From NCBI GenBank assembly GCA_963920765.1, contig OY987251.1:15131219-15195218 (forward strand): DNA of 64,000 bases, written 5' to 3'. The notes under the pieces are model-generated. The model searched no databases and was not told the origin of the DNA. It saw only the letters and a list, made by a program, of their open reading frames with translations. How positions within the stretch are numbered: position 1 is the first letter of the stretch; each line of letters begins with the position of its first letter. This DNA is from Ulota crispa (lineage: Eukaryota; Streptophyta; Bryopsida; Orthotrichales; Orthotrichaceae). Positions 2,635-61,192 of the stretch are shown here, piece by piece. The translations under genes were made by a program, and so were the position numbers.

Positions 2635-3530
2635 ACCACGCGACCATATTTTGGTCACTGGGTGTGGTTTTTGGTCTGTAGGTTGAAATTGCTTAGTAAT
2701 TTGGAATTTGGACTTGAAGTACGCATGAGATCACAAAATTTTTGCATCCATTTGAAAAATTAACAATGCAATTGGGTATGTGAGTTGACAAATAATGGTG
2801 TTTATACGGCATGGCTTCAAAATACGTATCTATATTTGGTCAAAGATGGATCAAAGCAACAACACAGTACATTAAGTATGCAAGAAGAATGTCAAATTTC
2901 AATTGCACAATTCTAAAAAATTTCAAATTGCTTAAGAAATATGCTTGTATTGTTTTTCTATACGATAGTAGTATAATTATAGTATTTGAAGATCTACTAA
3001 AATGTTGTTGTCATTTTGGCTTAAAAATTTGTCATCCTACATTTAAGGCCAATTCTTGATTGTTTTCACCAATTGGATTTTCTAGAATAATTATCAAATT
3101 TCTTGTAGAACCATTTTAGGGTAACAAAGAAAGTGGGATTTTTGACCCTTTTGTCCAATTAGCTAGACCTTGTGATTGCTATGTTTGTCTATTTTGAGTG
3201 AAACTAGTCTTGTTGGAAAGGTGGGAAACCCTGCTTTCTAGAAATGTAAGGCTCTTCTCAATCAGAACTTGCATGAAAGGTTAACATTCAAAACTAAACA
3301 AGAATGAAACACAAGAGATTTTCAGCATACGGCTCACTCAATCATTATAATATTTCATCTCCAATGATAGATCTAGCTGAAATTTTGGTGCTTTACAATG
3401 AACAAGGTGTACTTCCCATTCGTACAATTGGATTATTGAAAATGGGTCCATATTTGAGTCAATTCCAAATCTAAGCTTACCGCCCCTGTTTTCAGTGGAT
3501 TTTATGAAAATGGGTGTGGTCATTAAAGGG
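2635..3530. mobile_element. TTAA-flanked non-autonomous element (K)
   Basis: The element is bounded by TTAA at 2631-2634 and 3531-3534. The left end reads CCCTTTAAGGACCACGCGAC. The right end, reverse complemented, reads CCCTTTAATGACCACACCC, giving about 17 bp of terminal inverted repeat with one or two mismatches. The 896-bp interior is AT-rich and has no credible transposase ORF. TTAA duplication with CCC-starting ends is the hallmark of piggyBac-type transposons, so I call it a piggyBac-like MITE. Membership of that superfamily is inference. Confidence 0.75.
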
Positions 3531-3534
3531 TTAA

Positions 3535-4590
3535 TGCAACTTGGAAGAATATGCCTGCAATTGTATGAAGGGACAATTTTTCATCCGAGTGCTACATATT
3601 TCATCCAGATCAATGATGCAAGTCGCAATTCACCCATGAATCGCAATGCAACTTGCACTGCGTTAAATAATCTGAAATAAAGAATCACTGAACGAGGGTG
3701 GGCCCCTAATGCAGTGGTAACTGGTAACGGCGGAGTGAGGACTGTACTACAAGCCCAGGTGGAGGTACTACGCGCAGTACCACCAGAGTACGACGCTGCA
3801 GCCACGCAGGCAGTACGGTCTCCATGCTCTAGTTCACCACTTCACCCCGACGAAATCTTTGTAGGAGACTCGGAGACAACAGTGTGCGGGGAGATTTTGA
3901 GCTTCTTAGGCAAATATCCTACATTTCTCATTTTCAACCGGCATTTTTATTGCATACACCAGCTATTGCCTATATACTTGCACTATAATTATAATTTTTT
4001 TAGAAATTTAATAAAAGCTGGTATCTGTGAATTTTAGTTGGTTTTTTTTCACATTTCATTGGGCTGACTTTCTATTGATTTTTGGCTCTCCCCATTCATT
4101 GCTTGCAGACTCTGAGGCTTGGAGGTAGGGTTTAATTTTTCTTTTTGTCAAGGTAGATTGGCCTGCACCCCAGATTGCAGACAGGTAAGGAAAATTTGTC
4201 TAAAATTGGATCAAATAAATGATCTAGGAAAGTTTATCCAAAAACCTGTTAGTATAAGCTACTTTCATTCAAAATCTGGTAAATTGGGATTTTGTTCTAG
4301 GAAAGATTCGACTATTTCCAAAATTTCACACGAATTTCTTAGTGGACTTTCGGGGTAAGATTTAGGTGAAAAGTATCCAAGAAATTAAACCCTGCTCTGA
4401 GCTCCTGCCCAGCCCTTTTTCATACCCCATAACTTTTGCAAGGAAAGCCCCTTTAGTTATTTTCCCATACGAGAAAGAAAAAAAGTAACGAAAAAGAAAA
4501 AAAAGGAACATACTACTTTTTCCTCCAGTAGCAGCACAAATATGCCGCAACAACAACATATGAATCTGGGCCGTCGTACAGTACTTCTTC
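3535..4590. other. Intergenic DNA with a short GC-rich island
   Basis: From about 3690 to 3905 the composition changes abruptly to GC-rich. An open frame runs at 3714-4037 on the plus strand, but the open part beyond 3905 is AT-rich and I recognise no domain. The island could be a non-coding exon or part of the upstream region of the arabinogalactan-peptide gene. The remainder is AT-rich with nothing identifiable. Confidence 0.3.
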
Positions 4591-4599
4591 AACTCCCAC

Positions 4600-4951
4600 T
4601 CGCAGCTGTTCTCTAAGTTACATCATCTCGCTATCCTGCTTCCTCTTCCCCGCACTCACCACCTGCTGGTATGTCGGCATTGCAATCGCCCTCCCACCCC
4701 TCATAAACATTTCCAGCGTTCTTCCTCTGTCGTAGCTTGCTCGCTCGCGCTTGCAAGCATCTCCATCATCAGAGCGTCGTCATCTCATCGCCCACTGCAT
4801 TTCACCGTCTCTCGGGTACAACGCCTTGCATGCTCTGCTGCTCTTTTGCTTCTTTTGGTACACGTGAGCTTCAATCTGTGGATTGTCTTGAGCTTATTGG
4901 ACTGAGTGGGTTGGCATGGGCCGGCAGAGACTAGCGTGAACTTCGATTTCC
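4600..4951 (+). promoter_or_regulatory. Presumed promoter/5'UTR of the AG-peptide gene, with G-box
   Basis: This C/T-rich, GC-elevated stretch precedes the AG-peptide start codon and has the look of a plant 5'UTR (CT-rich tracts at 4620-4660 and 4680-4730). A perfect CACGTG G-box lies at 4861-4866, 86 bp before the ATG; such boxes bind bZIP and bHLH factors. The transcription start is not identifiable from sequence alone. Confidence 0.4.
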
Positions 4952-5161
4952 ATGGCTGGAGCGATGAAGGTGTTCTGGGTGGCGTTCCTGGTGGTGCTCA
5001 TGACAGCCGTGGTCGCGCTAGCCCACGATGGCGAAGACCACAGCCCTGCGCTGGCCCCAGAAGTACATGACGATATGAGCGCGGCGACGCCGGCGGTGTC
5101 ATTGATGACGCCTCTGCTGCTGGCCGGGATTGCAATCGCCACATCCGCCTTTGGGTGGTGA
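4952..5161 (+). CDS. Arabinogalactan peptide (AG-peptide), GPI-anchored
   Basis: A complete 69-residue ORF with the three-part design of plant AG-peptides. Residues 1-24 are a signal peptide with a strongly hydrophobic core ending VVALA. The mature part is very short, acidic and His-containing (HDGEDHSPALAPEVHDD), with Ser-Pro and Ala-Pro dipeptides that are typical sites of proline hydroxylation and arabinogalactan addition. A C-terminal hydrophobic stretch (about residues 50-69, SLMTPLLLAGIAIATS) fits a GPI-anchor signal. The product would be a small proteoglycan at the outer plasma membrane and cell wall. Length and layout match the family. I chose the first ATG because the signal peptide needs it, although the internal ATG at codon 5 would also work. 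No intron is needed. Neighbours give no functional clue. Confidence 0.75.
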   Translation: MAGAMKVFWVAFLVVLMTAVVALAHDGEDHSPALAPEVHDDMSAATPAVSLMTPLLLAGIAIATSAFGW

Positions 5162-5511
5162 GATCGCACCGATTTGCTTGCTGGTAAGGTGTAGAGATTT
5201 GGGCACTTTTTGTCACTATTCATGGCGTGAGAGAAGCTGTAGGAAACAGAAAATAAGGTACTTGGGAGCATCACGGCCTCCCCTTTCACAGACAATTATT
5301 TGTTGCGGCCTATTCCTTACAAACGTATACATGGGTGAGAGCTCGCTGCACTCGCCGTCTCTGTAATAATGTTGGTGGCTCTTGGCCTCGTCTCTATTGA
5401 ATACATGGTTGAATCAGTGTACTTTACCTCTTTGCATCGCACGTTAGAGCATCGTCCGCAATGCGTGTAATGGACTCCTGCTTTAGCTAGGCCCTCTCTT
5501 CTCACTAACAA

Positions 5512-5517
5512 AATAAA
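5512..5517 (+). terminator. Candidate polyadenylation signal AATAAA
   Basis: An AATAAA hexamer lies about 350 bp downstream of the AG-peptide stop codon, at the end of a mixed-composition 3' region. It is a plausible plant near-upstream element, though plant poly(A) signals are loose. Confidence 0.35.
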
Positions 5518-5529
5518 GTGTTGCTTTGA

Positions 5530-8372: not shown

Positions 8373-10263
8373 GTACTTTGTGGCTTGCATCTCTTAGAGA
8401 GTTACCTTAATTTTAGTAGTCTCCAACAAGTTCATGATGTAAGAGTTCATCAACATGCATCTTAGGATGGATGCAAGTAAAGGAAAAGATGGATAGAATC
8501 ATTTACATATGCATGTTCATCCATAAAATAAGTATATTTAATAATTCTCATTCAAATGTTGCGGAGATATGTCCTTCTTTTAAAGGGTCTTGGTAATTCC
8601 AACCATTTTTCTGCCAGTAAAATTAGTGATGTATTCTCTATGAGGACTTAGAAAATTCCGTTTTAATGTTATATTAGCCAATGTCAATGTACGATAAAAT
8701 TATGGCAATCATATGACAAATATTAAATACACTGCACTTTCAACATTCCGAGTAACAGATTTTCTCAGAGAGAAAACTCAAAACAAACATTAAAAATACC
8801 TTTGCTACATTTGCAACTTTCTAAAAAAAAAAACTTGATCATTTATAGCATTGTGCAATTTTTGAATTTGCTAAACTTCGATGGTGCATTAGAATCAAGT
8901 GTATGATTAATATCTCAACTACAGAAGTTGGGAATTGTGTATTTATAACATAAAATGGTTACTGTATTGTGAAAGAACTCATGAACTTGAGTCTGTATGG
9001 CCTTTCAATTGTTGCTCAATCTCTTCAACACCAAGAGACGCTCTAGATTTTCAAAAGATGAAAATATGTACTAAATCTCAGTCCAAAAGACTAATTAAAT
9101 GATGGTTTTCTAACAAAATATGAAACTGGATCATATTCATGTGGTTGTATGTATTCCAACAGTCACCATTGTTTATCAACAAAGTTTGGAACAAATGTTT
9201 TAACATTCCTATTACAGTATAGAATGAAATCAAAAATTAAAAATGCTAATATCATTTTTTTGTTCTTCAATTTGTGTGTTTAAGCTAATTGTGGTGATGT
9301 TTTGAGGTTTTTTTTTAATATTCCTGCTTTTAGATGTTGAATGTTGAAGGGTCCGTTTTTAGAATAAGAACTTTAGTTTTTGAGATAAAAAGTGTAAGGA
9401 TTTTTTTATCTAAATGATATTTATAGCGGTTTTTTTGAAATCTCTATGTAACAAATGTCAAAAAAACACATGAATAAGAGAAATATGTTTCCAAATGAAT
9501 GGAATCTATTGACATTTGATTATTGCTCAAACATTGTAAGCTTAATCCTAGATGAATGAAAAGGACTGATTAATCACATTACATTTCCAAAATTTTGTTG
9601 AATAAACTCCTATAGCAAAATATATGACAAGGGTATTTGAGGGTTCATATGTTTCAATGAACCTGGAATATATTTTGGATTTTATATAGAAACGTTCAAT
9701 TTAATCGATGTTTGAATCAAATGACTATTAAGTGAGACATGACATCTGGTGCAATGAAAACTAAAATTCATGTTTTGAATATAAATTTGCTTTGTATCAA
9801 GCTATGATTAAGAAAAACAAGCTAAGATGTAAGTTTGGGATTATGTTTACAGAAATAAAAGGATAGCATTTAATTACATTTACATCCTAATGATCTAATT
9901 ATCCCTTTGAAGACTTCGCAAGTAAAAATGCAGTAAAAGCATCTTCAATGTGACACAACGTTCCTTTGATGATCAAAGAAATGAGTACAAGTAGTGTAAT
10001 ATTTGGTTTTTAGTTTTATAAATTTTACAACAATGAGAGTACTAAACTATTGATTTTGCTTGAATTTTACAACATCTTTGCGACAACTTAGTGCAGCATG
10101 GAATAGTTGGAGTGCATGATACTTATAACTAACAAATATTGTAACACCAAAAATTATTAAAGCACAACACATATATCCATTAACTTAAAAGCAAGCATAC
10201 CGATAAAAAGAACAAAACTTAGGCTTCATCTTGGAGGTTTTGGATTTTTGAAGTTCATTAGAT
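8373..10263. other. AT-rich intergenic DNA
   Basis: About 1.9 kb of AT-rich sequence with stops in every frame. I see no gene, RNA gene or transposon end here. Confidence 0.5.
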
Positions 10264-11003: not shown

Positions 11004-11070
11004 ACGCACGCGTGCATGTCCATTAACTACATCCAAGCACATGTATTACAACTCACATTAGATCTTTTAA

Positions 11071-11946
11071 CCCCTAAGGACCAAGGAGCCCACTTTGGGC
11101 TTTCGGGATTTTTGGGCAAGCATTTCTCAAGTAAATACAAAAGATAAGATTGTGAAAATAAGAATGTATGTGCTCATATTATAAAACTTGCATATCTTCC
11201 AAAAAAAAGTGGAATTTAATAATTTTTTAGTGAGGTATGGTACCAAATGTGATTTAGATGTCAACATGGGCATCCTAAACAAAAATCAGAAAAAAAGGGA
11301 TTGAAGAAGGGTGTTGCCCAAATAGTGTTCAAAAGCACTTTACAATGGCTTGGTCAATGGGCAAAATTTGCAATTAACTCTCCTTGACTATGTAATAACT
11401 TTTATTTAACTTTTTATTTTTAGAAAAAAATTACTTTGGCAAGTACTCCACAAGATTTTCTAGGTTTACACCATACAAATTTTGTAATTAATATTTATTT
11501 CTATAAGAATTTCTTTGATGAAGTTTTCTTAGCGTATTGACAATTTGAACAAAGCAACTCCCGCTTCCAATTTTTTTCCATTATGTTTAAAGCATTGGGT
11601 AATCATGAAATTTGTGAGGCATATAGCCAACTTCATGCTCTACAATAAAGTTAAATTGCACAAGAAACTCATAAAAAGGAGGATATCGTTTTGAATGACC
11701 AAAAAAAAAATTGACACCTAAGAGAAGCTTCAAAAAAAGTTTTGCCCCTGCTTTGAGTGTTATAATCTAATGAAGAGTGCCCTCAAAAAATGTGAATTAT
11801 TGAGAGGATGTACATAAGTAAGTGACAAAATAGATCTTACGGTTAAATTATTGAAAAAAAATCAAAATTTTGATTTACTAATCACTTTATTGAGAGAGGT
11901 CAAATTTGAGCCATTTGACCATGTAATCACAAAAGAACTTTAGGGG
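11071..11946. mobile_element. TTAA-flanked non-autonomous element (A)
   Basis: TTAA at 11067-11070 and 11947-11950 bound an 876-bp segment. The left end is CCCCTAAGGACCAAGGAGCC; the right end reverse complements to CCCCTAAAGTTCTTTTG. Only the outer eight or nine bases match, so the pair has decayed. The subterminal GGTATGGTACCAAATGTG also occurs in element H (59467-59687), tying the two to one family. No transposase is encoded. Confidence 0.65.
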
Positions 11947-11950
11947 TTAA

Positions 11951-12712
11951 CCTTATGTTACCAATCCAAACATAAAATGTACTGTTTTTATCCTTTTATG
12001 CACTTTCACAATGCCCAAATTTATTCAATTTGATCTTTTTAGTATTTTTGTGTAAATACTTAACACATTTTTGCTATATGTTATCGGATTTTTTTTTTTT
12101 GCAAATGTTTGATAGTGCAAAGTATACAAGCACATAACAATTGAAGAATTCATTTTTATTTCCAACATTGACTCTTCAAGTATGACTTCAATGAAATTGA
12201 GCAGTAAAAGAATCTCAAAATTACTAAAATTAAAAAACTACTTTTAAATCCAACAAAAACAGATTCCTATAAGAAGTCACTTGATACAATCCATAATCAT
12301 GTTTCAAGAAAATCCCAATTTTGGACTTCTTCGTAGAATGATTCATAATCTTCACCAATATTGCAAAGTGATAAGGATTAGTCTCTTCACCTTTTGGTTT
12401 AGCAAAGGTATCAACATGATATTTTTTTTGGCTAGATGTTACCGATTGGAGAAAATTCGAACAGATTTAGACTAATGTAGGTTGGTCTCTCCATCTGTTA
12501 CCCAATTGTGGAATGTGGACATCCAAGATGTGGCTATTTGAGGAAAAAAAATCCTCGGTATCAATCGAGTGAGTGGTACCATGTGGCACTTTTTGAACAA
12601 ATTTTGAGTATTTTTTACTAAGTGTGCTATTTTTTAAATGACTAGGGTCCATTATTCACAAATTTTGTTTTGAAATGATTGGCAAGACATTCTTTGAAGT
12701 GGCACTTTGTAA
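11951..12712. other. AT-rich intergenic DNA
   Basis: Two small ORFs of 61-64 codons occur, without recognisable domains or codon bias. I see nothing else. Confidence 0.45.
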
Positions 12713-12720: not shown

Positions 12721-13164
12721 GGGAATTGATATGGGCACACCGGAGGTTGATATATGCACACCCCTGGGGTAATTTAGATTTCTACCATCAAAAAGAGTTT
12801 TGATTTTTAGGAGCTGAAACTTGGTATGCTTGATGGGGGTTGCATAACATCAATGATGCAAGACAATAAAATAATAATTATACTCTGTATGTTAGGCACA
12901 GTTCTTTGAATGGCCTAACAAAGTGTTCTCAATCTTTTTGTCCCCCCATTGTACATCCTTGTAATTACATCTATTCACTTCCATAGATTTTCCAATATTT
13001 TAGAGGTGATGGTTATGGGTACACTGATGGTTATGAGTGTTGCTACCTTCAATCCAAATATGAATTCAAGAATTCTCAAACTCAACTTTTTGATGATAGG
13101 AATCTAAAATTTCTCCCCTCGGGGGTGTGCATATATCAACCCCGGTGTGCCCATATCAATTCCC
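12721..13164. mobile_element. Foldback MITE, older of a nested pair
   Basis: A 444-bp palindrome-like element has ends GGGAATTGATATGGGCACAC and its reverse complement. An 8-bp target duplication TATATTAT lies at 12713-12720 on the left. On the right the matching copy is at 13498-13505, because a second foldback (13169-13492) has inserted immediately after this element's right end. A related copy is at 48843-49256. Long arms, no ORF and 8-9 bp duplications suggest a MULE-type or hAT-type MITE. The superfamily is inference. Confidence 0.85.
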
Positions 13165-13168: not shown

Positions 13169-13492
13169 CGGAAAATTTCATGGATACCCCTAAAAAAATT
13201 TCATATTTTCATAGATACCCATACTTTTTTCAGAAATTTCACAAATACCCTTGAACCAGAATTTTCAGGCATTTGTTTTGTTGTGCATATCACTTCCTTC
13301 TCCCTTTGTGTGCACACTACTTTTTTCTTGTTATTTCTTGTTACGCGTGCACACAACAAAAAAGGGAAAATGGCATACACGACAAAACAAACACCCGAAA
13401 ATTTTGGTCTGAGGGTATTTGTGAAATATCTGAAAAAGCAGGCGTATCTATGAAAATATGACAAACTTCGGGGGTTTCCATGAAATCTTCCC
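13169..13492. mobile_element. Foldback MITE, younger of a nested pair (9-bp TSD)
   Basis: A 324-bp long inverted repeat with ends close to GGGAAAATTTCATGGATACC. It is flanked by TTCCCTACA (13160-13168) and TTCCCTATA (13493-13501), a 9-bp target duplication with one substitution. Two further copies lie at 49912-50222 and 50539-50859. A 9-bp duplication is typical of Mutator-like elements. It carries no transposase; apparent ORFs on both strands read the same palindrome. It ends about 240 bp upstream of the UBX-gene start codon. Confidence 0.9.
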
Positions 13493-13497
13493 TTCCC

Positions 13498-13732: not shown

Positions 13733-16700
13733 ATGGAGGCTGCCGCGGGACCCCATGAACTCTCGGATCCTCCTGGAACTCTTTTCTTCCAGGGTTCCAT
13801 CTCCGAGGCCATCGTCCGTGCTCAGGCCGATAATTTAGTTCTCATCGTATTTGTCGCAGGTCAGGATCACGCTCATTGCCACCGTGTTGCCAGATTAGGT
13901 GCATGAGCAACAGACTGATGTTTCAGGGTTTTGGTTTTTGGACAGGGGAGAATGAGGAGTCGGTGTCGCTGGAGTTGACAACTTTTCAGAATCCTGCGGT
14001 GGGTTGATGTTGAACTTGTCTCATGATTGAAGGTTCTAGGGTGGAGGATTCATACTCTGCTGCAATTTCATTATGGACTTTTATGTCAGCGTAATTGACA
14101 GATTCCAGAGAATATGTTAATATTATTAGGGTTTACTTTCAATTTTCACTTCGGGGCTATTTAGGTCACACCTTATTCCGTTTTAGGAGTGCGAGATGAT
14201 TGAGGGTTTGAAGGATCCTAGGGTCGAGTGATAAGATCCTTCTTGAAAAATGGTGTAACTCGTTGTGAACAAAAGTACTCAACAGCTCCGGGAGAGTTTA
14301 AAAGAGTGCACTTTGGCTTCTTGCTCCAGCGACATCTGAGTAACACCCAATCTGATGAATACTGTAACGTCAGTATCTAGGGTACCAAATCACAACCTTT
14401 GACTATATTCATTGTGAAATCCGGGGATGACTCAAAGGGAGATGGGATTCCTGGCAGGTGTTGGACGAGGTAAAGAAACAGAGCCTGTTTCTGCGATTGC
14501 AGGAAGGAAGCACGGATGCAAATTATTTCTCCGCCATTTGTATCCTCTTTATCATTTTGAGCTGCTATCATTCTTTCATTCATTTGATTTCTCCTGCCTT
14601 TCAGTCCGTGATTGCCGTCGGAGTCACGTCATTGAGAATTGCTACAGTGAGGCTGTTTCTATCGTTGGAATTTGGAATTTTTTCTAGGTCTTCTGGTGAG
14701 AGTGAGGGGAGCAATAATACTGGAATTTTAGTCCTTAATAAGAGCTTTATAAGTTCCCGTAAGACATGTTCCGACGATTACCTTGATTGGTTACAAAGGA
14801 TCGTTGCTGCAACAGCTCGGTACGCCTCTGTTTCTCATAGTGTAGCACCTACAGTATGCACTTTCCGAGTAATTCTGGCATGTTATGTATGCATCTGATT
14901 GGACAACTTCCGCATGTCAAGTTGTGAACACTTGTGAGATGAGCTTGTTTGTCCCTTGAGGCAGTACAATTGACTTGGATTGAGTGTAACCTATACAGAG
15001 TTTTCTCACGAGTGCTGAAGATATTATATGTGTTACTTCGACGTTAGCAGTACCCTTTCATTAGTGTCTCATAATTGAAACAAGAATTTTCCTTTAGCGT
15101 CACACTGATTGTCATTTTGACAGAGGGCTACCAAGAAGCCGAGCCATTTTTGACAGCTCTACGGCATGCCGTCACCACATTCAACACGGAGGTTTGTCTG
15201 ATTCTAAACCATATCGTATTGGTTTCTGGATGGCGCACTGTTTGTATAACATTGATCACATGTCAAAGGTAGACAATAACGAGTCCTAACGATCCATATT
15301 CCTCAAGAGTATTTATTTCTGTTGCAATGCCTATTTTCTTCAATACTTTGTGAATGATTGTGAGGTAGTATGTTAAATATCCAATTTATGCTCTCCCATC
15401 AGGTGCAAGGAGCTGTAGCAAGCGCGATGGTTGCCTTTCTTTCTACAGCAAAGAACATGACTGCGAGTGGCACACCTTCGGCTCCTGAACCTCAGTCTGC
15501 AGGTGAGGCCTCTGCAACAATATATGTCTGATGTTCCTTGGTCGATGTGCATTTTAATCCCTCAAGTACCAAAAGTCCAAATTAGGTCTCTTGCTTTCAT
15601 AATACGTTCTGAATATGTAATATCGGGGCTTTCTTTTGTCCGATTATGTTTATTTTGACGAACATATGCAATGCTCTTCACTAGTTCTGATATAAAATTT
15701 GGCCTCGGTTGAATCATACCTTTTATAATATAATCAATCAATTCGGTCATTTCCATACCACGAGTCCTTCGTCATTTAGATGTTTCAAGTGTGTAGTGTA
15801 GTCTAGGGGCAATATAGTTATTCAATAAACGTGTCGGCTAAGTGCAGACAAGTCTACCGTTGAAGATACACAAGTCGCATCAAGTTCCAGCACAGCGACG
15901 CCTTCTGCGGCTTCCGTGCCTGCAGGATCGCTTCCTAGTAAATCTGAGGAATTGCCAATGGAGGTGGACTTTCAGGCACCAGCTGAAGTTACTGAGACAC
16001 GCTTGAGTCCAGACTCTAAACCCTCGACGATTGAAAGTGGTGACTGGGGTGGTAACATCGAAACAGGGATCAACGCATCAGCTTCAACACCCGAGGCTTT
16101 GAGAAGCAGTTTGCAAACTTCAAAGCCTGTTCAGAAGCAGTCCTCTACAACGGGTGTCAAGCAGGGGAATGGAAAGAAGGCGCCTTTGCAGCAGGAGCCA
16201 CCAGCGCCTAAACCAGTCCGTGTCAGAACCGGCCCATTTCCGCTGCAGGTGAGGCTCACAACTGGTGAAACAATCCAAGGAAGTTTTGAGTCATACCAGC
16301 TGTTGAGGGATGTGAAGAATTTTGTCGACCTACAGCGAACGGATGGAAATATGGAGTTTCAGTTGGCCGTTCCGTTTCCTCGAAAAGTGTTTACCGAAGG
16401 AGGTAGCTAATTTGCCTTTCTCTTCATTTGCATTCCCCTTGATTTATTGCTGTACAAAAGACACTTAAAGGCTCGCTTCTCAAAGTAGCAATCTCAGGAA
16501 ATCAGTATTACTTCACAACAATATAGTTGCCTGCCTCCTTGACTGAAGTTTTGTGTTTAGCGTGTTTTTTCTTAAAAACTGTTGGCTCTCAATGACATCC
16601 ATGTATATTACGTTTCTTGGGTATGGAGTTATGCATGCTGAGATATCTGTATTTTGTGCAGATATGGATACGACTTTAACTAAGTTGGGCCTTGGTCCAC

Positions 16701-18283: not shown

Positions 18284-18363
18284 AAATGGTTGTGGGTGAT
18301 TGAGTGATGGTTATGGGTGATGAAGTGATGGTTGTGGGTGATGAAGTGATGGTTGTGGGTGAC
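18284..18363. repeat. 21-bp tandem repeat (about four copies)
   Basis: The unit TGATGGTTGTGGGTGATGAA plus one G is repeated three to four times, with TTGTGGG/TTATGGG variants. On the minus strand it reads as His-Asn-His-His-Phe-Ile-Thr repeats; this is an artefact of the period being a multiple of three. It is the start of the dispersed repeat described next. Confidence 0.85.
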
Positions 18364-49433: not shown

Positions 49434-49911
49434 ACTATAGGCAATTATAATTATTATTTTTAATCTAATTTAAATGAGGAACCGTGAAAAACCACAATAA
49501 CCAAACTATAAATCTAAATGAAGCAAAATTATTGTTTAGGAAAGTCTAAAAGGACCAAAATAAAAGAATAGTTTTAAGTTTTAAATTCAAATCTTTGTTT
49601 GGCGTCTAGAATGTTTTTCTATGGGCAAGTTTCAGTTTTCTTTTCTTTTCTCTTAATCGAGCTTTTAATGGCTTCAAGCTTTGGAAATACTTAAGAAATC
49701 AATTGCAGTTTTGATTACAAAAATACAACAAATAAAAGAAGCACAAACAAGATCTACATAGTAAAAATATAAAACCGTAAATCCAAAACTCTATCCAATG
49801 CCTAGAGAAGAATGTCTATGGATAATTTGAAGTTGTTTAATCTTGTATCCATAACAACAAACTTTAAAAATTCATAAGAAAAAATCTACTTCTATAATTG
49901 CATTAAAACAA

Positions 49912-50222
49912 GGGAAAATTTTATGGATACCTTTGAAGTTTGCCATATTTTCATAGATACCCTGCTTTTTCAGAAATTTCACAAAGACCCTTGGGCCAAA
50001 AAATTAAGGCGTTTGTTTTGTTGTGCATGTCACTTCCTTCTCCCTTTGTGTACACACTTTTTCTTTCTTGTTATGCGTGTGCACAAAGGAAGAAGGGAAG
50101 TGCCATGCACAACAAAACAAATGCTTGAAAATTATGGTCCAAGAGTATTTGTGAAATTTATGGAAAAGCAAGTGTATCTATGAAAATATGGCAAACTTTA
50201 GGGGTATCCATGAAATTTTCTC
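49912..50222. mobile_element. Foldback MITE, copy 2 of the 13169 family
   Basis: A 311-bp palindromic element starting GGGAAAATTTTATGGATACC. Flanks TTAAAACAA (49903-49911) and TTGAAACAA (50223-50231) form a 9-bp duplication with one change. The small ORFs on both strands are palindrome artefacts. Confidence 0.88.
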
Positions 50223-50538
50223 TTGAAACAACCCAAAAAATTGCAAAAACAAGATTTACAAAAAAAACAAATAAAATCTATGATTTCATTTTTTTCCACA
50301 AATTGCCAATTAAAGACCACAAGCAAGAGTTTTAGATCTTATCTTGTGAGATTTTAATACCACAACTTCATAAATGCATAGTGATTCAATTGTAATTTTG
50401 TTTGCTATGAATTAGACATTTACAAGAAGAAAACAAAGGATACTATGCCCAAAAATCATCAATTTTTGAAAATATGAAACTTGTGTTGCAAGGTGAACAA
50501 TTAATAACCAAGCTCATCAGGTCTTGTAATAGATTATA

Positions 50539-50859
50539 GGGAAAGTTTCATGGATACCCTTGAAGTTTGCAATATTTTCATGCATACCCCTGCATTTTCA
50601 GAAATTACACAAATACCCTTGGACCAAATAATAGAGACATTTATTTGTTGTGCTTGTACTTTCTTCATGACCAATGTTGAAGAAGGGAATGTAACAAAGC
50701 AAAAAAGAAACAATGTGTGCACAAAAGAAGAAGGGAAGTGACATACACAACAAATAAATGTCTAATTTGTTTGGTCCAAGGGTATTTGTGTAATTTCTAA
50801 ATAATCAAGGATATCTGTGGAAATATTGCAAACTTCAAGGATATCCATGAAATTTTCCC
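50539..50859. mobile_element. Foldback MITE, copy 3 of the 13169 family
   Basis: A 321-bp element starting GGGAAAGTTTCATGGATACC with a perfect 9-bp duplication TAGATTATA at 50530-50538 and 50860-50868. It lies only 307 bp from copy 2. Confidence 0.92.
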
Positions 50860-50869
50860 TAGATTATAT

Positions 50870-51511
50870 TGCACCCTAATATCTTTCTCTCTTAGTCACC
50901 CTCCTCATTTTATTTTACTACAACTTAACACAACTTTACTTGAGGCATAGAATAAGACAAAAATTAAAAGAATTGTGATAAGCAACCAAAACTTCTTTAA
51001 TCCTACACTTAGTTTTAGTCTATAAATAGTGTTTAAAATGTCACTACAAGAGACAAACTATATGCTTAGCTTGCCAAAATCACATGAGAGAAAATAATCT
51101 ATAGAAAAAGAGGACAAAAGACCAAGAAGATTAGAGCCAAGAAAAAAAGAAGAGAGAAAAACCTCTTAGTGAGACGATATGCCTTCAAAGGTTTCATTAT
51201 TCTTCTCATATTTCTTATTCATTCTAGTCTCTAATCTTCTAAACTTCCAATCTTTGTCTTCAATTTTTTTAGTCTCACCATGTTTTATATTAGATTTATT
51301 TCCACATATATATATATATATATATATCTAAAATCTGTTTTATGTTTTACTATTTTCATTCAGTTTAAATTTAACAAGTAATATTAATTTCATCAACAAA
51401 TCTTATTGCATTAATTAAACTTCAAATTTTTTTGATAGATTATTCTTTCAAATTTTACTCTAAATCTAATTGGGTTCCATATTAGATATTCATGAAAATT
51501 TTAGTTTTTAA
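50870..51511. other. AT-rich intergenic DNA
   Basis: A short TA run lies at about 51305-51327. No gene is seen. Confidence 0.5.
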
Positions 51512-51515: not shown

Positions 51516-52210
51516 CCCCTAAAGCCATGAACACCCCTTTTTGGCAACATAGCGATTTTGAGCATCTCACTACAAGTGGGATTTTCATTTTTTTATTTAA
51601 AATTTTCAAACATGGTGTATCCAAGGAGTAGCTTTAACATCCAACAAATTTCATAACTTTTGACTTCATGATTTAAAAGTTATTGCATAATATGTTGTTT
51701 TCTTTGCTCGGCAGGCAACTCGTGCAGCTAAGAATTTTTTTTTTTTAAATTACATTTTTTTGATTTTTTTTCAACTAGTTTTATAGATTTGTAAATACAT
51801 GGAATGCTTGAAATCACTCATTTTCAATTAATGAGATGAAAGTTATGAAGAGTTTTAGTTTGCGGGTGTATGGAATCCCTCCAAAACCATACCTACTTGC
51901 AAACTAAAACTCCTCATAACTTTCATCTCATTAATTGAAAATGAATGATTCAAAGCTTTCCATGTATATACAAATCTAGAAATTTTTCTGAGTTGTGCGG
52001 GTTGCCCACTGAGCAAAGAGAACAACACATCATGCAATAACTTTTGAACCATGAAGTCAAAAGTTATGAAATCTTTTGGACCTTAAAGCTACTCCTTGGA
52101 TACATCAAGTGTGAAAATTTTAAAGAAAAAGAATGAAAAACCCATTGGTAGTGAGCTGCCCAAAATTGCTATGTTACAAAACAAACAAAAAAAGTTAAGA
52201 GATTTAGGGG
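51516..52210. mobile_element. TTAA-type element (F) forming a long near-perfect hairpin
   Basis: The left end CCCCTAAAGCCATGAACACC follows TTAA (51512-51515). The right end GATTTAGGGG is followed by TAAT rather than TTAA. Almost the whole 695 bp folds on itself around 51880: the left-arm stretches CATAACTTTTGACTTCATG, AAAAGTTATTGCAT and TTTTCAATTAATGAGATGAA reappear complemented on the right. The left arm carries about 50 extra T-rich bases. Long double-stranded RNA from such a locus would be a substrate for Dicer-like enzymes; this is inference. Confidence 0.8.
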
Positions 52211-52214: not shown

Positions 52215-53891
52215 GATGACTTCTAATTGTTAGGATTTACTACTAGGTGAATCTTGCCCAAACCATAATCAATTTGCATGGTTTGGAAAAGATTTTTTTA
52301 CTTTTGTCTCCATCTATTTCTGGGATGTCAATGTCAATGTGTATTGAAACAACTAATTTTAAATTGCCTTTTCAAGCCACTTGTACTTCTTTCATTTTCA
52401 TTAGCTCCACATGCTAGTTTTTTAACAATCATCACTGTCGTCGGTACTTGTTTTGTCTCTTATCTCTTTCTCATCAAAATCAGCCTCATTATTATCTAAG
52501 TAATTGAAAGTAAATTCAGCAGCTTTTAAAAGCGATACTTCATGCTTAACAAAGCAGTCTCTAATTATTTTTTGAGTTTCTTTGCAAAACACATTGAACA
52601 TCTTCAAGACAAGATAATATTTGTAGTTTCATTCATTGCGCAATTTGTAAATTCCTTGATAACCAAGCTCGTTCTTGTCTTTTGCATTGCGTACGAATAT
52701 AAATTACATGTTTGCATTGCATTACAAAGTGTGCAAGCAATTGCAAGTTGAGCTTGGTATGGCAAAACTTGTAACCGTGCGCAAGGTAGAACAAGCAGCT
52801 CTTTACATGCTCTAAAGCATTAAAAGTGAAAGGGGCTTATTTTGTCACGCAATAATCTATCCGATCCTTGTTTGTAGATTTTGCAATTTAAAATTAACAC
52901 AGAAAACATCTTTCGCTTTTAACCTTGAATAAAATCCCTTTAGGGAGAAAGGCATGTGGTTCAGAAGGGGAAAGAACGGCTTTTATATCTGAAGACATTC
53001 CTGCTTGAAATGCTGCAAATGACGAACACTAGTTAATCTCATATTCCCAAAACTGAACATGGGAATTGGCAAATCCCACCCTCTGTAACTGCAGTCTCTC
53101 ATTGCGCATTCCCAATCCATCCTCACATTTTCCATGTTGACAGCAATTAGAAACAGCGACTTACTCACTTCAATTCAAGTTTTTGCGACTACAGTGGCAC
53201 TAGTTAGAATTTTCTCAGCACGTTTTGGTTGAGGGGAATAGTTGAGCTCTACAAGGGCCCTCATCTTTGGACGTTCATTTGTATTTTTCTTACCTAATTC
53301 GAGAACCCACCTATATTTCTCGAATTTACCCAAATTGATGAGCCCAGCACATACTACAGCACGGTAAATTGAACTGCATTGTCTCCCAAAATGGAACAGT
53401 TTATAGTACGTGACGTAAGATACAACGTTCTCAATACATTGTCCATCAACCCGCTCTCAATTTCTAATCCAGATTGGTGAAAATACAGCTCTGATAAAAG
53501 AACCAGCTCTATACTACTCAGAGAATAAGCCCAGCAGTTTCTACAAACCATAATCGTACACAAGCTGCACAGTGAAAAAAACCTATTCCTGGAAATCTTT
53601 TTCTGAGCTATGCCTTCCTCTTATCCTGTTCGTTGAGATAAGAGTTCGTAAGACGATAATATGCAAATGGAGAATGGCTATTCTTTCACTCGACAAAAAA
53701 GATAAGCACTTCGAATATAGCTAGCTTCAGATAACCAAACTTCTTCGGACTTTACCTAACAGACTCCAACGTGAGGCTCTCACTCGTCAAAAGGCAGGAT
53801 TTTCTACATCAAAGGCGAAACACTCCACTTCGTAACGCCATCACGAAGACACGACATTTTGCGACGTTCGAGACATAACAGCTCATTTCTG
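52215..53891. other. Intergenic DNA and 3' flank of ClpB copy 2
   Basis: AT-rich to about 52900, then more balanced up to the ClpB stop; the last few hundred bases may be its 3'UTR. No other gene is supported, and the sequence does not resemble the 3' flank of copy 1. Confidence 0.4.
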
Positions 53892-56800
53892 TCAACCCTG
53901 AGCGTAGGTTAAAGGATCAGCGTCCGCCGCCTGGTTGGACGAATCCATTGCCTGCAGTTTCCGGAAGGTCAGCTTCTGCTGTGGAAGACCGCCCCCTGCC
54001 ACGGTTGTCAGGTCCGTGTCCACCAAGATCGTGTCCTCTTCCTTGAACTCCCCTTTCAAAATTGACCGAGCCAGCTCGTTCTCCACGCTCTGCTGGATCA
54101 CCCTCTTCACCGGCCGCGCTCCGTAGTTCGGGTCGTACCCCAAGCTCGCCAGCAGTTGCACCGCGCTCTCCGTCACCTTCAGAATGATCTTCCGATCCTT
54201 CAGCCTCTTCTGCACCCGGTCCACCTGCAACCAACCCCGCAACCACCGTCAGCGATTCCCACCACCACCACCACCAAGAACAAGCCAAAAAACCACCGAG
54301 AACACCAACACCATTCCCCTCCCCAACTTCCCTCTCCTTCACTCACACCCAGCATCTCCTGTCAGCACCATACGACCGACGACAATTCACCGGCACCACC
54401 CGTACCTGCAGCTTCACGATTCTGCTGATCTGGTCCCGGTCCAGCTGCTGGAACACGATGTACTCGTCGATGCGGTTCATGAACTCCGGCCGGAACGTGT
54501 CCCGAGCCGCGTCCATCACGCGCGCTCTCATCGCCTCGTAGATCACCTCCTTGCTGCTGCCCGCGCTGTCCGCGCTGTTCAGCACGTACTGCGACCCCAC
54601 GTTCGACGTCATGATGATCACCGAGTTCGTGAAGTTTATCGTCCGCCCCTGCGAGTCCGTCACGCGCCCGTCGTCCAGAATCTGCAGGAAGATGTTGAAC
54701 ACGTCGCTGTGCGCCTTCTCGATCTCGTCGAACAGGATCACCGCGTACGGCCTCCGCCGCACCGCCTCCGTCAGCTGCCCGCCCTCCTCGTACCCCACGT
54801 ACCCGGGCGGCGCGCCGATCAGCCGCGACACCGCGTGCTTCTCCATGTACTCGCTCATGTCGATGCGCACGATCGACTCCTCCGTGTTGAACAGGTACGA
54901 CGCCAGCGCCTTCGCCAGCTCCGTCTTGCCCACCCCCGTCGGCCCCATGAACATGAAGCTCGCGATCGGCTTGTTCGGGTCCGACAGCCCCGCCCTCGAC
55001 CGCTGGATCGCCTCCGCCACCGCCTTCACCGCCGGGTCCTGCCCCACCACGCGCTTGTGCAGCTCGTCGTCCAGCCGCAGCAGCTTCTCCCGCTCCGACT
55101 GCTGCAGCTTCGAGATCGGAATGCCCGTCCACTTGCTCACCACCTCCGCGATGTCGTTCCCCGTCACCTCCTCCCGCAGCATCGACGCCCCGCTGCTCTG
55201 GTACTCGTCCAGCGCCTTCTCCGCCGCGTCCAGCTGCCGCTGCAGCGTCATCAGGCTCCCGTACTTCAGCTCCGCCGCCCGGTTCAGGTCGTAGTCGCGC
55301 TCCGCCTGTTGGATCTCCAGGTTCACCCTGTCCACCTGCGCAAGCCCAAAAAACACACGCCTCGTCACTCCCGCGTCCCACCCGCCCTTCTACACCCACG
55401 TTCCCCTTCCGAACCACCTGCATTGCTTCCTACACAACGACTCGCCGCTGCACCAACGCAAGCAATCACAAGGCACCGGAAACTCTGACACTACCCACAC
55501 CAAGTCAAACCGCACGCGCCGATGATCTCAGACATCATTCCACACTGCACTCTACCCTGCTGCACCCACCTCCTCTTTGATCGACTGGATCCGGGTCATC
55601 ACAGATTTCTCGTGCTCCCACTGGTCCGTCAGCTCCTTCTGCCTCGACTTCAAAAGCTCCAGCTCCGACACGATTCGGTCCAGCCGGTCCCGAGATGCCT
55701 TGTCCGTGTCGTTCTTCAGCGACAGCCTTTCCATTTCCAGCTTCAGCACCGCCCTGTCTATTTCGTCCAGTGCCGTCGGCTTCGACGTTATCTCCATCTT
55801 CAGCTTCGCAGCGGCTTCGTCCACCAGGTCGATTGCTGCACATCGCCCACTTCCCCATCACAACAGCAACTTCCAAACAGAAACCAAGCCCGTGGCGAGA
55901 TGTTCTGACCAACAGATACCCCCAATCAGCTACGCAAGACTCCGGACACCGTCACCACTTACCTTTGTCGGGGAGGAACCGATCCGCGATGTACCGATCG
56001 GACAACATGGCCGCCTCCACCAGAGCGCTGTCAGAAATCCGCACTCCGTGATGCAGTTCGTACCGCTCACGAAGGCCTCTCAAGATGGACACCGTGTCCT
56101 CCACACTCGGTTGGTCCACGAACACCTGCTGGAACCGACGCTCCAGCGCCGGATCCTTCTCGATGTACTTCCGGAACTCGTCCAGCGTCGTGGCTCCGAT
56201 GCACCGCAGCTCTCCACGCCCCAGCATGGGCTTCAGTAGATTTCCGGCATCCATGGCCCCACTCGCGGCACCTGCACGTCGTGATCACAAATGCCGACCC
56301 TTGAGAACGGATGAAAGAGCAACACAACGTGCGATGGACAACTTTCCATGCAAAACACGACTATTCCAGAAGACCTAAGATGATGAGCGGACTTACCAGC
56401 ACCAACAACAGTATGGATCTCATCAATAAACAAAACGATCTGACCATCGGAGTCGGTCACCTCCTTCAGTACAGCCTTCAGTCTGTCCTCGAACTCTCCT
56501 CGAAGCTTAGCACCCGCTATCAACGATCCCATGTCTAAAGAAATTACCTGCGAAATACCAAAAAGAATCAAATTCGCACCTACAATGAGGCGCATTCATG
56601 TGACTACATACATTAACGAGCTGAATTACCACGAAAACATGCTGCACTTCCAATCTACAACGAGGAAAATTGCCGCTCATACAAGCAACAGTAGGTTCCA
56701 GGCATGATTACCTTGCGGTTTAGTAGCGCTGACGGCACGTCTCCCTGCACAATTCTCTGAGCCAAACTGTCCACAACACATATTGGCTCATTCAGCCCAA

Positions 56801-58817
56801 GAGATTCAATTCTCGAAATCAAGTAACTCTTGCATGAAGAGTTTTCATCACTCCAGAGCTCCCTACTCTCAGTCCACAACCTTGACATTTTTTAGCTATG
56901 CTCTCCCTGAATAGAAGACTCTACTTCCACTCAGAAACGCCAAAAGGTCTCAGCATTCGAGCCCATGCAACGATCACTCGCCACTCTCAACTCACCCTTC
57001 AGAAATAGCAGTCTTTCCCACTCCGGGTTCTCCGATCAAGACTGGATTGTTCTTCGTTCTCCGTGACAGAATCTGTATGCACCGTCGAATCTCGTCGTCT
57101 CGTCCGATCACGGGGTCCAGTTTCCCCTGCCTCGCCATCTCCGTCAGGTCCTTCCCATACTTCTCCAACGCTTCGTACTTGCCCTCCGGGTCTGTAATCG
57201 ACCACGCACTCCAGCAACCAAGGTTAGACGCCACTGAACGACTGCTCCTCCGTCGGATGATCGCTCTCAATGGAAACTACACCACTCTACCAAGGCTTTG
57301 CCAGGCCTTGCAACATACAGGAGCACAGAATTCACACCCCGGGTGCTCGTGCTCGCCTCTGCAACTCACAAAATTTCTGAGCCGTTTCACACTTTCCACA
57401 AGTCTTGGACTTCGTTGTCTCACCGCAGAATCAGAATCGCGACACAGACGTGCTGCCAGACCAGATGAAGTTCTCACCTTGGTCGGTTACCTTCTGAGAA
57501 CCGCGAACGGACTGGATTGCAGCGTTCAGGGCCCTCGCAGTCAGCTGGAAGTCCTTGAACAGCTGCTGCCCGAAACGCTTGTCCTGCGCGTATGCCAACA
57601 CCAAATGCTCCACCGACACGAATGAATCCCCGTACTCCTTCTTGTGCCCTCGTGCCTTGTCGATCAACGCCTCCAGATCCCGCCCCAGCATGGACCCGCT
57701 CGTGTCGCCCATCACCTGCCTCACCCAACACCGCATTCCAATTAGTCAAGTAGCGTCCTCCCCGTTTCCCTGCGCTGAACATCACACCCTCCCTCTCCAC
57801 CATGCGACACCACCATGGCCAAGTGCCAGCTCAAGTGCGTACCTTCGGTTGACGCTGCACGAAGCGCTCCGTCGCCTGCAACAGCGAAGTGTTGTCCACT
57901 CCTGCTTTAGCGAAAATTCGGCGGGCCAGCCCATTCCGCTGCTCCAGCAACGCCTTCATCAGATGCTCAGTCTCCACAATCTGTTGCTTGCTTTCTTTCG
58001 CCACATCGGGAGAGGCCACTACTGCCTGCCAGGCCATCTCCGTGAACTCCCCCTGATTGATCTGCGCAGTCACCGTCCATTTTATTAGACACTCGTTCTC
58101 AAGCGAGAGGTTGCAGCCCATTCACAAAGGCTTCTTCTGTCTCTTGTCGCCCTGCCACACTCGGTGCAACGACTCGTAGCCAAAAACTTCAAGAACAGGA
58201 TGAAGCCCTAATTAGTTTGAAGACCATTCCGGTTCCAGAAACCCGTCAGAGAAGAATTGCCACACCTCATCACAGCAGGGCTCGCAAATTCGTTTTACAC
58301 AAAATCCCTCATACAAATGCTCCTCGAATTGTCGTACAGTCATGACAGTTTACAGCGGAGTCCTTCTCCAACATTTCAATTTCATTCTCGTTTTGCGAGA
58401 TGTTGCAGGGTGAGAAAGAATTCGTTACAGCAACCCTGCTTGACAGAACATATTACAAACCCTACCGCCAAAACTTAAACGATTGTTAGCGCAAATTACC
58501 TTCCCATCTCGAGATGCAGCCGATGCAACCGTTCGATACGTTCGCTTCGTTCTCAAAATCTCCTCCTTCCTCACCACGCGCTCCGCTCGCAGACCTGCAA
58601 ACCTTCCCCACACTCCAGCATTGGCCAAACCGAGTGGCCCCACAACAGAATTCGCCGATGTCACGCTCCTCACAGCTGCCTGCGCCACCACCCGCCTCGC
58701 GGACCTCCATCGCTGCTGCTGCCACTTAGGCGCAACGGACACCGACCTCGCCACAATTGACGGCAACCCCCTCGCCATCACTCTCTGCATCGCTATGCGC
58801 TGCGTCACGGCCGCCAT
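53892..58817 (-). CDS. CLPB: Chloroplast-type ClpB AAA+ disaggregase, copy 2
   Basis: Same ten-exon structure as copy 1: 58500-58817, 57843-58061, 57478-57715, 56996-57191, 56712-56766, 56397-56547, 55963-56271, 55570-55835, 54406-55335 and 53892-54224; 1004 residues. Exons 2 to 8 have exactly the same lengths as in copy 1. Exon 1 is six codons shorter and its transit-peptide-like sequence ([20 protein letters not shown]) differs at many positions. Exon 10 ends earlier (TYAQG then stop). Walker A motifs GEPGVGKT (312-319) and GPTGVGKT (715-722), Walker B motifs and sensor-2 GAR are intact, so both copies look functional. Introns 1 to 5 differ in sequence, and intron 1 is twice as long (438 versus 215 bp). 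The tract 54009-56499 appears identical to copy 1. Confidence 0.95.
54009..56499 (-). repeat. Conversion tract in ClpB copy 2 (partner 20003-22493)
   Basis: Counterpart of the identical tract in copy 1, spanning part of exon 10, exons 9 to 7, part of exon 6 and four introns. The identity of fast-evolving intron sequence, against diverged neighbouring exons, argues for recent homogenisation rather than selection. Confidence 0.9.
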
Positions 58818-59179: not shown

Positions 59180-59462
59180 TTGGCGAGCGCCGCAGAGGCT
59201 TCCTGGAATGCTGTGGAAGCATCTGCTGCTCCGCGAGAGCCCCCCCTTGGGCTTGGTTGGGTTTCTACCGACTTGGTGCAATCGGGGGTTGCGACACTTT
59301 GAAGCTCTTGTTATCCGATTGTCAAGACCCATTGCTCGGCCCCATTTGAACCCGTACGAACCGGTGGTGGGAAGGTGTGAACGTCCTGCCAGGCTGGCAC
59401 CCCAAGCATAAGTTATAGGAAATGCACTTCTTTCTTCTTCTTCTTTTTGACATCTGACTGCT
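59180..59462. other. GC-rich 5' flank of ClpB copy 2
   Basis: Balanced composition with short frames on both strands, none recognisable. Probably distal promoter. Confidence 0.35.
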
Positions 59463-59466
59463 TTAA

Positions 59467-59687
59467 CCCCTGAGGGGACCTTGGGCTCTAGAGATATGGT
59501 ACCAAATATGATTGCAACCAATATGCAGAAGTTTGAATTAGTTGGAAATTAAGTTTTACAACTATATATTGAAGGATTGTATGATGGTGGGTGCATAATT
59601 CTATTTGGAAATCCCTCAGAGCAGCTCAAATACATCTATATATATAATTGTACATACGATCGCAAAGGGCTTTCGGGCCATTCAAGG
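59467..59687. mobile_element. Short TTAA-flanked element (H, 221 bp)
   Basis: TTAA at 59463-59466 and 59688-59691. The left end is CCCCTGAGGGGACCTTGG; the right end reverse complements to CCTTGAATGGCCCGAAAG. The ends have decayed, but subterminal GATATGGTACCAAATATG is shared with element A. Confidence 0.6.
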
Positions 59688-59691
59688 TTAA

Positions 59692-59992
59692 GGTAGGCGC
59701 ATCCATAAGTGTGGAAATAAGGGTTTTGGAGTAGGTAAAATAATTGACTAACTTTGAAAAAAACACTCTAAATTAGGAAGTGGAAACCAAAAATATTGGC
59801 ATCAATTTCAAGGTTCCAATTGCAAGCATTTGTTCATAAAGATTTTTCAAAATCCAAAATCACTGAAATTGTAAGAACCGTGTGTAAGAGATGCTGAAAA
59901 CAAGACTTGTTGGTTCTTAAATAGTGAGATGGGTACTCAAAACCGTCATGCTAGTCACCCACAACCATCACTTTGTCACCCATAACTTTCAC
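59692..59992 (-). repeat. Dispersed repeat R1, copy 2 (interrupted by element I)
   Basis: Inverse of 18284-18626. At its end, in the GTCACCCATAACTTTCACT stretch, the repeat is interrupted by TTAA and element I. After the element, GTTCCCATAACCACCC appears to continue the 21-bp repeat register. Confidence 0.75.
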
Positions 59993-59996
59993 TTAA

Positions 59997-60638
59997 CCCC
60001 TAAATGCCCAAGCCCTATCTGAGCTTCTTGGACTTTCCGTGAAAGTGAACAATCACCCTCTTCATGAATTCCATTGAGTTTTTTTCAATTGTAACCGTAC
60101 AAATTTAAGCTAAACATGTTAGAGATTACATGGAAAAAGAAAATGCAACAATATCACTTACAGTTTGAAAGATTATAATGTTTGAACATGAGGGTGTTAA
60201 AACTACAAAAGTGACTTAAAATCTTCCAATCCTTGTTTCACATGTCAAATCCAGAAAGTTGGTCACCAAAAAAAATATGAGGTTTAAGGTCATTACATGT
60301 CTAACATGAATCAATTTACGGATTTGATAATCTACTTCTACATTATTTTTAAATGAATTTCTCATGTGGATTTTTCTCCAAGCTCTAGTGTATTTGAGGC
60401 TCATTTTCAACATCTTCCAACACTAGAAAAGTCAAGATTGCAGTGGACACCCTTGTACAAAATCTCAAGTAGAAAAATCATCAACTTTTATTTCCAAAAT
60501 CAGATTTTTGATGTTGAAAGTAGACTTGAAAACAAACTTAAATTGAAAAAAGAGTATTAAAAATAATGCTTTGATAAGGTTTAATTCATCTTCAAAGTTT
60601 CCTCGCAACCCAAATTTGGTTACTTGGGTATTTAGGGG
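59997..60638. mobile_element. TTAA-flanked element (I, 642 bp), inverse sibling of C
   Basis: TTAA at 59993-59996 and 60639-60642. The ends CCCCTAAATGCCCAAG and (reverse complemented) CCCCTAAATACCCAAG match at 15 of 16 positions. The interior aligns to element C in inverse orientation, with the same 642-bp length; stretches such as TTGGTCACCAAAAAAA and CATGTCAAATCCAGAAAG find counterparts there. A related empty site is present at 18300-18303. Confidence 0.88.
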
Positions 60639-60642
60639 TTAA

Positions 60643-60825
60643 GTTCCCATAACCACCCTGACTTTGTCAATGACACCCATGGGGACGTGACGCCCATGGG
60701 TGCTCCTACCTTACTCTTGGCAACAACTGCCGAGGGCGACAACCATTTCATTGAATTTGAGCTGTTGGTAGAAATTGAATCAAAGACCTTTGAGCCCATC
60801 CAACTTTAGTTGTCTTGTATAGTTC
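60643..60825. other. Short spacer between elements I and J
   Basis: Contains GC-richer sequence (GGGGACGTGACGCCCATGGG) of unknown origin. No gene. Confidence 0.4.
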
Positions 60826-60829
60826 TAAC

Positions 60830-61192
60830 CCCTACATGCCCAAGGGAACAAAAAAATTGTCCCCTCACTACCCAAAAAATACCATGTAAGATGGGGAAAA
60901 GTATTTTTCATTCAATCTTTTTTTAGAAGTGGTAATGGAAATGTGCTCCATCATGAAATGCTAAAATAGGTTCATTGAATATCCTTGTATTGTTCTAAAC
61001 TTCAATTTGTGAGAAGATTCACAAGCACAACGTTAGGTCCCATGCTGCCCTACTTGCAATTTTTATGAGGTTGGCATGCACTATTGACCTTTGCAACTTT
61101 TGAGAACAATATTACATTGCATGGGCACATACCATAACACTGTAAAGCAACTATAGTTGGACAACCACAAGGACTAGCTAGACATTCAAGTG
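60830..61192. mobile_element. TTAA-type element (J, 363 bp), degraded
   Basis: CTAA (60826-60829) precedes CCCCTACATGCCCAAGGG. On the right, GCTAGACATTCAAGTG is followed by TTAA (61193-61196). The outer bases match only loosely. Confidence 0.5.

Follow-up and report, generated by a model that had tools for sequence, protein, structure and literature searches.

The stretch examined here, hereafter the window, comprises 64,000 nucleotides of Ulota crispa (contig C10, positions 15,131,219-15,195,218, of a 274.8-Mb assembly). Besides genes and other repeats it carries a series of short elements, most of them lying between TTAA tetranucleotides and beginning with CC, that have about 16 terminal bases in common and differ in their interiors. 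They are short, non-coding and present in high copy number, and they have ends in common with a coding element, as is characteristic of miniature inverted-repeat transposable elements (MITEs). We conclude that they are almost certainly non-autonomous piggyBac MITEs of several families, mobilised in trans by piggyBac transposases of the same plant genome. All twelve stretches listed in the initial annotation have relatives in the window or elsewhere in the genome, although the first starts at 2625 and not at 2635, and the list had missed two members, at about 9020-9643 and at 1467-1850. The termini and flanks are as described there, except that TTAA is absent at some ends and that some flanks and right ends are decayed. 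The proposal that the elements make up roughly a tenth of the window is accurate, as ten credible elements occupy 11.0% of it and the inclusion of four partial or uncertain ones raises this to 13.0%.

The elements are given here with their orientation wherever one could be assigned. A 906-bp MITE at 2625-3530 has TTAA on both sides (the left one at 2621-2624) and the terminal inverted repeat (TIR) CCCTTTAAGGACCA, with an own-end TIR p of 0.0002; 25 of the 41 other genomic matches listed span exactly bases 1-906, with identity of up to 94%. TTAA also borders both sides of an 876-bp MITE at 11071-11946 (TIR p=0.004), for which 26 of 39 other genomic matches listed begin at positions 22-29 of the query (11041-11976) and stop at 908-912, which correspond to the two TTAA sites, and of a 240-bp MITE at 31518-31757 (TIR p=0.004), which has a full-length relative of 67% identity inside L012, one of the transposase loci considered below. 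Two forward-strand elements, a 914-bp MITE at 39511-40424 (left flank TTAT, right flank TTAA) and the 955-bp family B MITE at 45389-46343, are homologous to each other at both ends. Of the other genomic matches to family B listed, 29 of 39 run from base 1-2 to 951-955 and 8 start at 25-28, and a truncated copy of it lies on the reverse strand at 42855-43164 (84% over 319 bp). Family A is represented by a 642-bp forward-strand MITE at 44711-45352, with perfect TTAA flanks and the TIR CCCCTAAATGCCCA, and by a reverse-strand copy of the same length at 59997-60638 that is 75% identical to it and nested in another repeat; 33 of the 39 other genomic matches listed cover exactly 1-642, and the remaining 6 are within 2 bases of this. 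The window by itself leaves the 221-bp MITE at 59467-59687, with TTAA on both sides, in doubt (own-end TIR p = 0.21). Nevertheless, 39 of 41 other genomic matches listed begin at positions 18-25 of the query (59440-59720) and end at 247-257, the TTAA borders, and it is a real element despite its weak TIR. The right end is uncertain in the MITE at 60829-61192 (left CTAA, right TTAA; own-end TIR p = 0.21), whose copies in L010 and L014 match only its first 306 and 330 bp. Two members are decayed, namely a 553-bp MITE at 28474-29026 (left TTAA, right TTAG) and its relative at about 9020-9643 (flanks TCAA and TTCA), the two being 60% identical over 385 bp (E 3e-14). The own-end TIR p is better than 0.005 in 8 of 11 elements, with 28474-29026 tested with its right end one base off. 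Finally, a 695-bp near-palindromic MITE at 51516-52210 (left TTAA, right TAAT) is a self-inverted repeat, which as RNA is predicted to form a single long hairpin (-364.8 kcal/mol, z -33 against 20 shuffles) and is a possible small-RNA source.

Within the window, the association of these ends with TTAA exceeds chance. Self-BLAST alone, in which TTAA was not a criterion, identified 44707-45356 and 59993-60642 as inverted copies whose homology ends at the outer TTAA edge on both sides. When a weight matrix was trained only on the four ends of this pair, TTAA preceded 8 of the 30 highest-scoring sites in the rest of the window, compared with an expected 0.2 (P 3e-11); the right end of the decayed member at 9020-9643 was also picked up by a matrix scan. 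Likewise, homology between elements leads to 10 ends, of which 8 adjoin TTAA and 2 are one base off (TTAT at 39511, TTGA at 1850); this count leaves out the pair 28474/9020, in which homology begins only 10 bp inward from the end. Among 23 ends, partly chosen by the earlier reader, the four TTAA positions are conserved in 20, 23, 22 and 22, and the first and the second base of the element are each C in 22. A blind window scan for TIRs beside tetramers was unspecific, with 5 TTAA pairs but 19 for AATT and 11 for ATAT, an excess that is due at least partly to other palindromic repeats. CCCTAAA, present at many ends, is the plant telomere unit; a telomeric origin was rejected because other ends begin CCCTTTAA or CCCCTGAG. 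Termini beginning CCC or CCCT are those of piggyBac elements as presented in the available portions of PMC10813416 and PMC12732532.

The nested family A copy allows comparison with an unoccupied site. It sits in a repeat that measures about 400 bp and carries the inverted ends TAAGGTAG; copies of this repeat lie at 18213-18625 and at 59690 to about 60715. The first of these has no insert, and removal of 59997-60638 together with one TTAA from the other restores the alignment of the two; at the corresponding position the unoccupied copy has a single tetramer, TGAA. This comparison is suggestive of a 4-bp duplication, and no more than suggestive because the site is within a short tandem repeat.

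Genome-wide copies show the same borders. The terminal 16-mer CCCCTAAATGCCCAAG occurs 3,244 times in the assembly, 2,742 of these (84.5%) directly after TTAA, compared with no occurrence of a reversed-pattern control. Twenty full-length family A copies, which were drawn from the best genomic matches and therefore under-represent decayed copies, share a mean mutual identity of 90% and have TTAA at 33 of 40 ends, on both sides in 14 of the 20, with an identical 4-mer on both sides in 15. No longer direct repeat flanks them, identical 5- to 8-mers being found in none of the 20, and homology mostly stops at or near TTAA and does not run on past it. First-look searches returned 2,401 candidates for 2625-3530, 4,403 for family A, 1,791 for family B and 4,908 for 51516-52210, but these numbers (873 to 4,908 per family) are not copy counts, as 40 candidates were scored each time.

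A piggyBac transposase domain (DDE_Tnp_1_7, PF13843), which the initial annotation had anticipated as the autonomous partner, has at least 120 profile matches genome-wide, a lower bound given that 116 of 528 candidates were scored. None of the 120 is located in the window, and a Pfam scan of 262 of the 265 window open reading frames (ORFs) of at least 50 amino acids outside three gene regions, the other three ORFs belonging to a tandem repeat at 262-549, detected of the piggyBac superfamily only a sub-threshold zf-Tnp_2. We fetched 20 transposase loci, consisting of the eight best matches and twelve chosen mainly for few or no stops. The translation of one of them, the stop-free L018, matches Trichoplusia ni piggyBac in PDB (6x67) with E 1.9e-19 and piggyBat with E 6.1e-16. 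When the loci were aligned on what we take to be the catalytic aspartate positions of T. ni piggyBac, the first aspartate was present in 19 of 20, the second in 16 of 20 and the third in 18 of the 19 aligned. A C-terminal Cys-rich finger pattern is found in 4 of the 20 (L012, L013, L021 and L022), in L011 by tblastn (its zf-Tnp_2 match, E 0.003, is below cut-off) and weakly in L017 and L023. At two loci, G000:C1:1180709-1181995 (L020) and G000:C8:19570986-19572215 (L021), the transposase domain is in two stop-free pieces, with open frames of 563 and 472 amino acids; these are copies that contain an intron or are shifted or, possibly, genes that have been domesticated. Stop-free transposase loci also include C4:3591922-3593028.

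Several of these loci have ends in common with the MITEs. Downstream of the 20 transposases, TTAACCC in the inward orientation was found 14 times at a distance of 1.5-2.5 kb, compared with 3 times in the outward orientation, and control strings gave no such peak. Clear TTAA+CC ends are present on both sides of 8 of the 20 loci, spanning 5,019 to 5,738 bp with TIR scores of 6.4 to 15.0. Four MITE ends can be aligned, starting at base 1 or 2 and over 50 to 380 bp, with ends present at transposase loci. The right 364 bp of 39511-40424 match the right end of L011 from base 1 (E 9e-21), as does the right end of 45389-46343 (E 1e-11), whereas 44711-45352 matches the right end of L022 with its right end (E 6e-11) and the left end of L012 with its left end (E 8e-6). 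Weaker matches join the right end of 59997-60638 to the left end of L012 (E 0.003) and, aligned from base 1, the first 80 bp of 2625-3530 to the left end at L021 (E 0.001); an opposite-strand control gave one weak match, also with E 0.001. In three of the four cases the homology extends over approximately 200-380 bp, far longer than a TIR. The most secure link is L012, an element bounded at both ends, and it is here that the presence of a DDE_Tnp_1_7 transposase, and not one of another superfamily, between shared termini is clearest. By the same alignments, families 39511 and 45389 point to the L011 type and 44711/59997 to the L012/L022 type; the assignment of family 2625 to the L013/L021 type is less secure.

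A number of observations weigh against this interpretation. No transposition was observed; at least one stop interrupts 110 of the 120 PF13843 matches, and in the stop-free L018 the third catalytic residue is N. A string count alone places inward TTAACC on both sides of 11 of the 20 loci, but L011, L021 and L022 were discounted, as one TTAACC in each belongs to another element or is doubtful, so that in 12 of the 20 a clear TTAA end is missing on at least one side; the TIR pair of L017 is not accompanied by TTAA, and upstream of the transposases the terminal strings form no sharp peak. Two of the eight bounded elements, L016 (6.4) and L027 (7.2), have TIR scores inside the range of the controls; averaged over the 20 loci, the best TIR score is 8.3 for TTAA compared with 7.5 for AATT, the other twelve tetramers scoring 5.0-6.6. 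L012 is the only locus with aligned ends at which both ends are clear; at L011 and L022 the right end is located where the element should end, but it may be part of a MITE copy close to the transposase. End homologies are 59-76%, and for this reason no family could be assigned its exact helper. Lastly, a genome-wide zf-Tnp_2 search returned no match, either in this genome or in the controls.

Such observations could be taken to indicate that the MITEs are old and dead, and that the transposases now present derive from unrelated later invasions, their short termini being alike by convergence. The divergence of the window copies, which are 75% (44711/59997) to 82-87% identical to others, and the large number of interrupted transposases are in keeping with this. 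However, convergence does not readily account for end homology that reaches far beyond the TIR, and copies of family 2625 retain up to 94% identity; we regard this explanation as unlikely. The same evidence divides the earlier proposal that a piggyBac-type transposase has been, or is, active in this lineage: transposases of this type with shared termini support the former, but present activity finds no support in a set of matches of which so many carry stops. Much less probable still is that the elements are Tourist/PIF or Tc1/mariner MITEs, the usual plant MITE superfamilies in the available part of PMC12550479, which would generate a shorter duplication (TAA or TA) and merely prefer TTAA. 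Shorter duplications were rejected, as all four flank positions are conserved in the partly reader-chosen ends, TTAA precedes the great majority of 16-mers genome-wide, and the transposase link is to piggyBac. We give hardly any credence to Kolobok MITEs, which have the same TTAA duplication and another transposase, and which according to the available portion of PMC9587614 occur in some algae; termini of Kolobok are 5'-RR..YY-3' in that source, and AG in Xenopus in the corresponding portion of PMC6004289. Here C is first and second in nearly all ends, and the loci with shared ends carry PF13843, hence Kolobok was rejected. Equally remote are Sola3-type MITEs, as Sola3 duplicates TTAA but the loci with shared termini encode piggyBac transposase. 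The Sola superfamily does occur in a moss, Sola1 of Physcomitrella being entered in the plant table of PMC9033089, a source available in part.

If the elements are piggyBac MITEs, larger elements with the same TTAA-flanked CC termini (5.0-5.7 kb where both ends are clear) would supply the transposase in trans. This DDD transposase would cut and paste at the TIRs, passing through a TTAA hairpin intermediate by analogy with T. ni piggyBac, and insertion into TTAA would generate the 4-bp duplication; excision, by the same analogy, would be seamless. The hairpin and excision steps are those given for T. ni piggyBac in the available portion of PMC7351741. We infer that the MITEs were moved by the transposases of this genome or by relatives of them that are now dead.

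Upstream of the transposase, 10 of the 20 loci contain a second conserved coding stretch of approximately 50 to 125 residues, which had no match in Pfam or PDB. It has 91 genomic matches, 36 of which precede a detected transposase on the same strand by 1.8-5.3 kb; one further pairing within 8 kb was in another arrangement, and 500 random placements gave at most 2. For the other 55 matches no transposase was detected in this position, perhaps because PF13843 scoring was incomplete. L013 and L018 have a different upstream region in common. The conserved stretch may represent an accessory protein, or it may be an additional exon at the N-terminal end of the transposase. On balance we favor, with some reserve, the view that plants, or at least the Ulota lineage, host their own branch of piggyBac, made up of elements of about 5-6 kb with a transposase and a conserved upstream stretch, the latter common to several divergent transposase lineages.

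Similar to other members of the piggyBac superfamily, which is familiar chiefly from animals, such as T. ni piggyBac and piggyBat, the elements described here combine TTAA duplication, CCC termini and DDE_Tnp_1_7 with a DDD motif, and several loci have a stretch that may be the Cys-rich C-terminal finger; they differ in their plant host and in the second conserved stretch. The eight bounded elements are also larger, at 5.0-5.7 kb, than the beetle elements of 2.1-3.5 kb with one ORF in the available part of PMC12732532, although lengths of up to 9.5 kb are given for another animal set in that of PMC10813416. As far as the accessible accounts of it extend, mPok of Daphnia is likewise a non-autonomous member of the family and a piggyBac MITE, whereas the present MITEs form several divergent families, occur in a plant and have thousands of ends genome-wide. 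On the same footing, Kolobok and T2-MITE of Xenopus resemble them in TTAA duplication and MITE amplification but have purine termini and a different transposase. For plants, the fern Ceratopteris has 1,230 repeats labelled PiggyBac in the available portion of PMC6890710, a label given there without structure, termini or transposase, and the corresponding part of the review PMC10794571 counts PiggyBac as a plant superfamily but offers no example. PiggyBac MITEs are a known kind of element, and what is new, as far as we have seen in the open-licence literature, is a plant host with a large and diverse set of transposases and a second conserved stretch. The abundance of transposase matches (at least 120) and of MITE ends (thousands) suggests that plant annotation limited to five or six superfamilies misses piggyBac. 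It also opens to testing how this superfamily, which serves as a tool in animal genomes, came into plants, persisted there and diversified. Pattern scans of viral and prokaryotic collections gave no matches.

The window itself may retain part of a larger element. On the forward strand, 848-1850 is probably what remains, in decayed form, of the 3' portion of a piggyBac element, to judge from its similarities, with a finger-like stretch at approximately 932-1042 and a 3' terminus at 1467-1850. The ORF at 848-1075 matches zf-Tnp_2 with E 6.8e-4 and 20.6 bits, compared with a cut-off of 24 (one match among 116 ORFs scanned), and none of 20 controls, nineteen shuffled versions and one reversed version of this ORF, gave such a match. 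The finger stretch is similar to the zinc-finger region of L011 (tblastn E 2.6e-6), and 1467-1850, which is in register with the right end of L011, shares 65% identity (E 1e-33) with the right part of family 45389. Arguing against a relic, the distance from finger to 3' end is approximately 810 bp compared with approximately 1,620 bp in L011, 848-934 belongs to another repeat (87% in L021), 1078-1467 has no homology to a MITE, and the zf-Tnp_2 match is lost in a read-through Pfam scan of 1-2700. A PDB search with the finger ORF returned no piggyBac chain, and no left end was found upstream of the relic.

The genes of the genome and window support a plant as the host, as had been proposed; that it is a moss is only presumed, on the grounds that a small NAC set and an assembly with ten contigs of 15.8-41.4 Mb and one of at least 5 Mb would suit a moss. 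NAC factors are plant proteins, and the NAM (NAC) domain has 25 genome matches, corresponding to thirteen loci, twelve of them in two pieces, and none in 14 control genomes. Multi-exon ClpB-type genes of bacterial, organelle type lie at 19869-24065 and 53875-58108. Approximately 2.2 kb of this pair (roughly 20,190-22,390) is 99-100% identical and most of the rest 70-96%, and the identical tract looks like the product of recent gene conversion; an exon within it has 94% GC at third codon positions, beside 30% GC in the 25-53 kb region. Further inverted or near-palindromic repeats, without TTAA/CCCC ends, are located at 12721-13164, 13170-13494, 34581-34999, 40613-41050, 48843-49256, 49909-50225 and 50525-50873. 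Rfam and tRNA scans of the window gave no match in either case. An array of 25-bp tandem repeats, nearly perfect in its middle, occupies 287-566, an exon of a UBX-domain gene lies at 15829-16407 (Pfam E 2.1e-11), and one of 146 short window ORFs scanned contains a fragment of an Rce1-like CAAX protease (E 4.7e-6).

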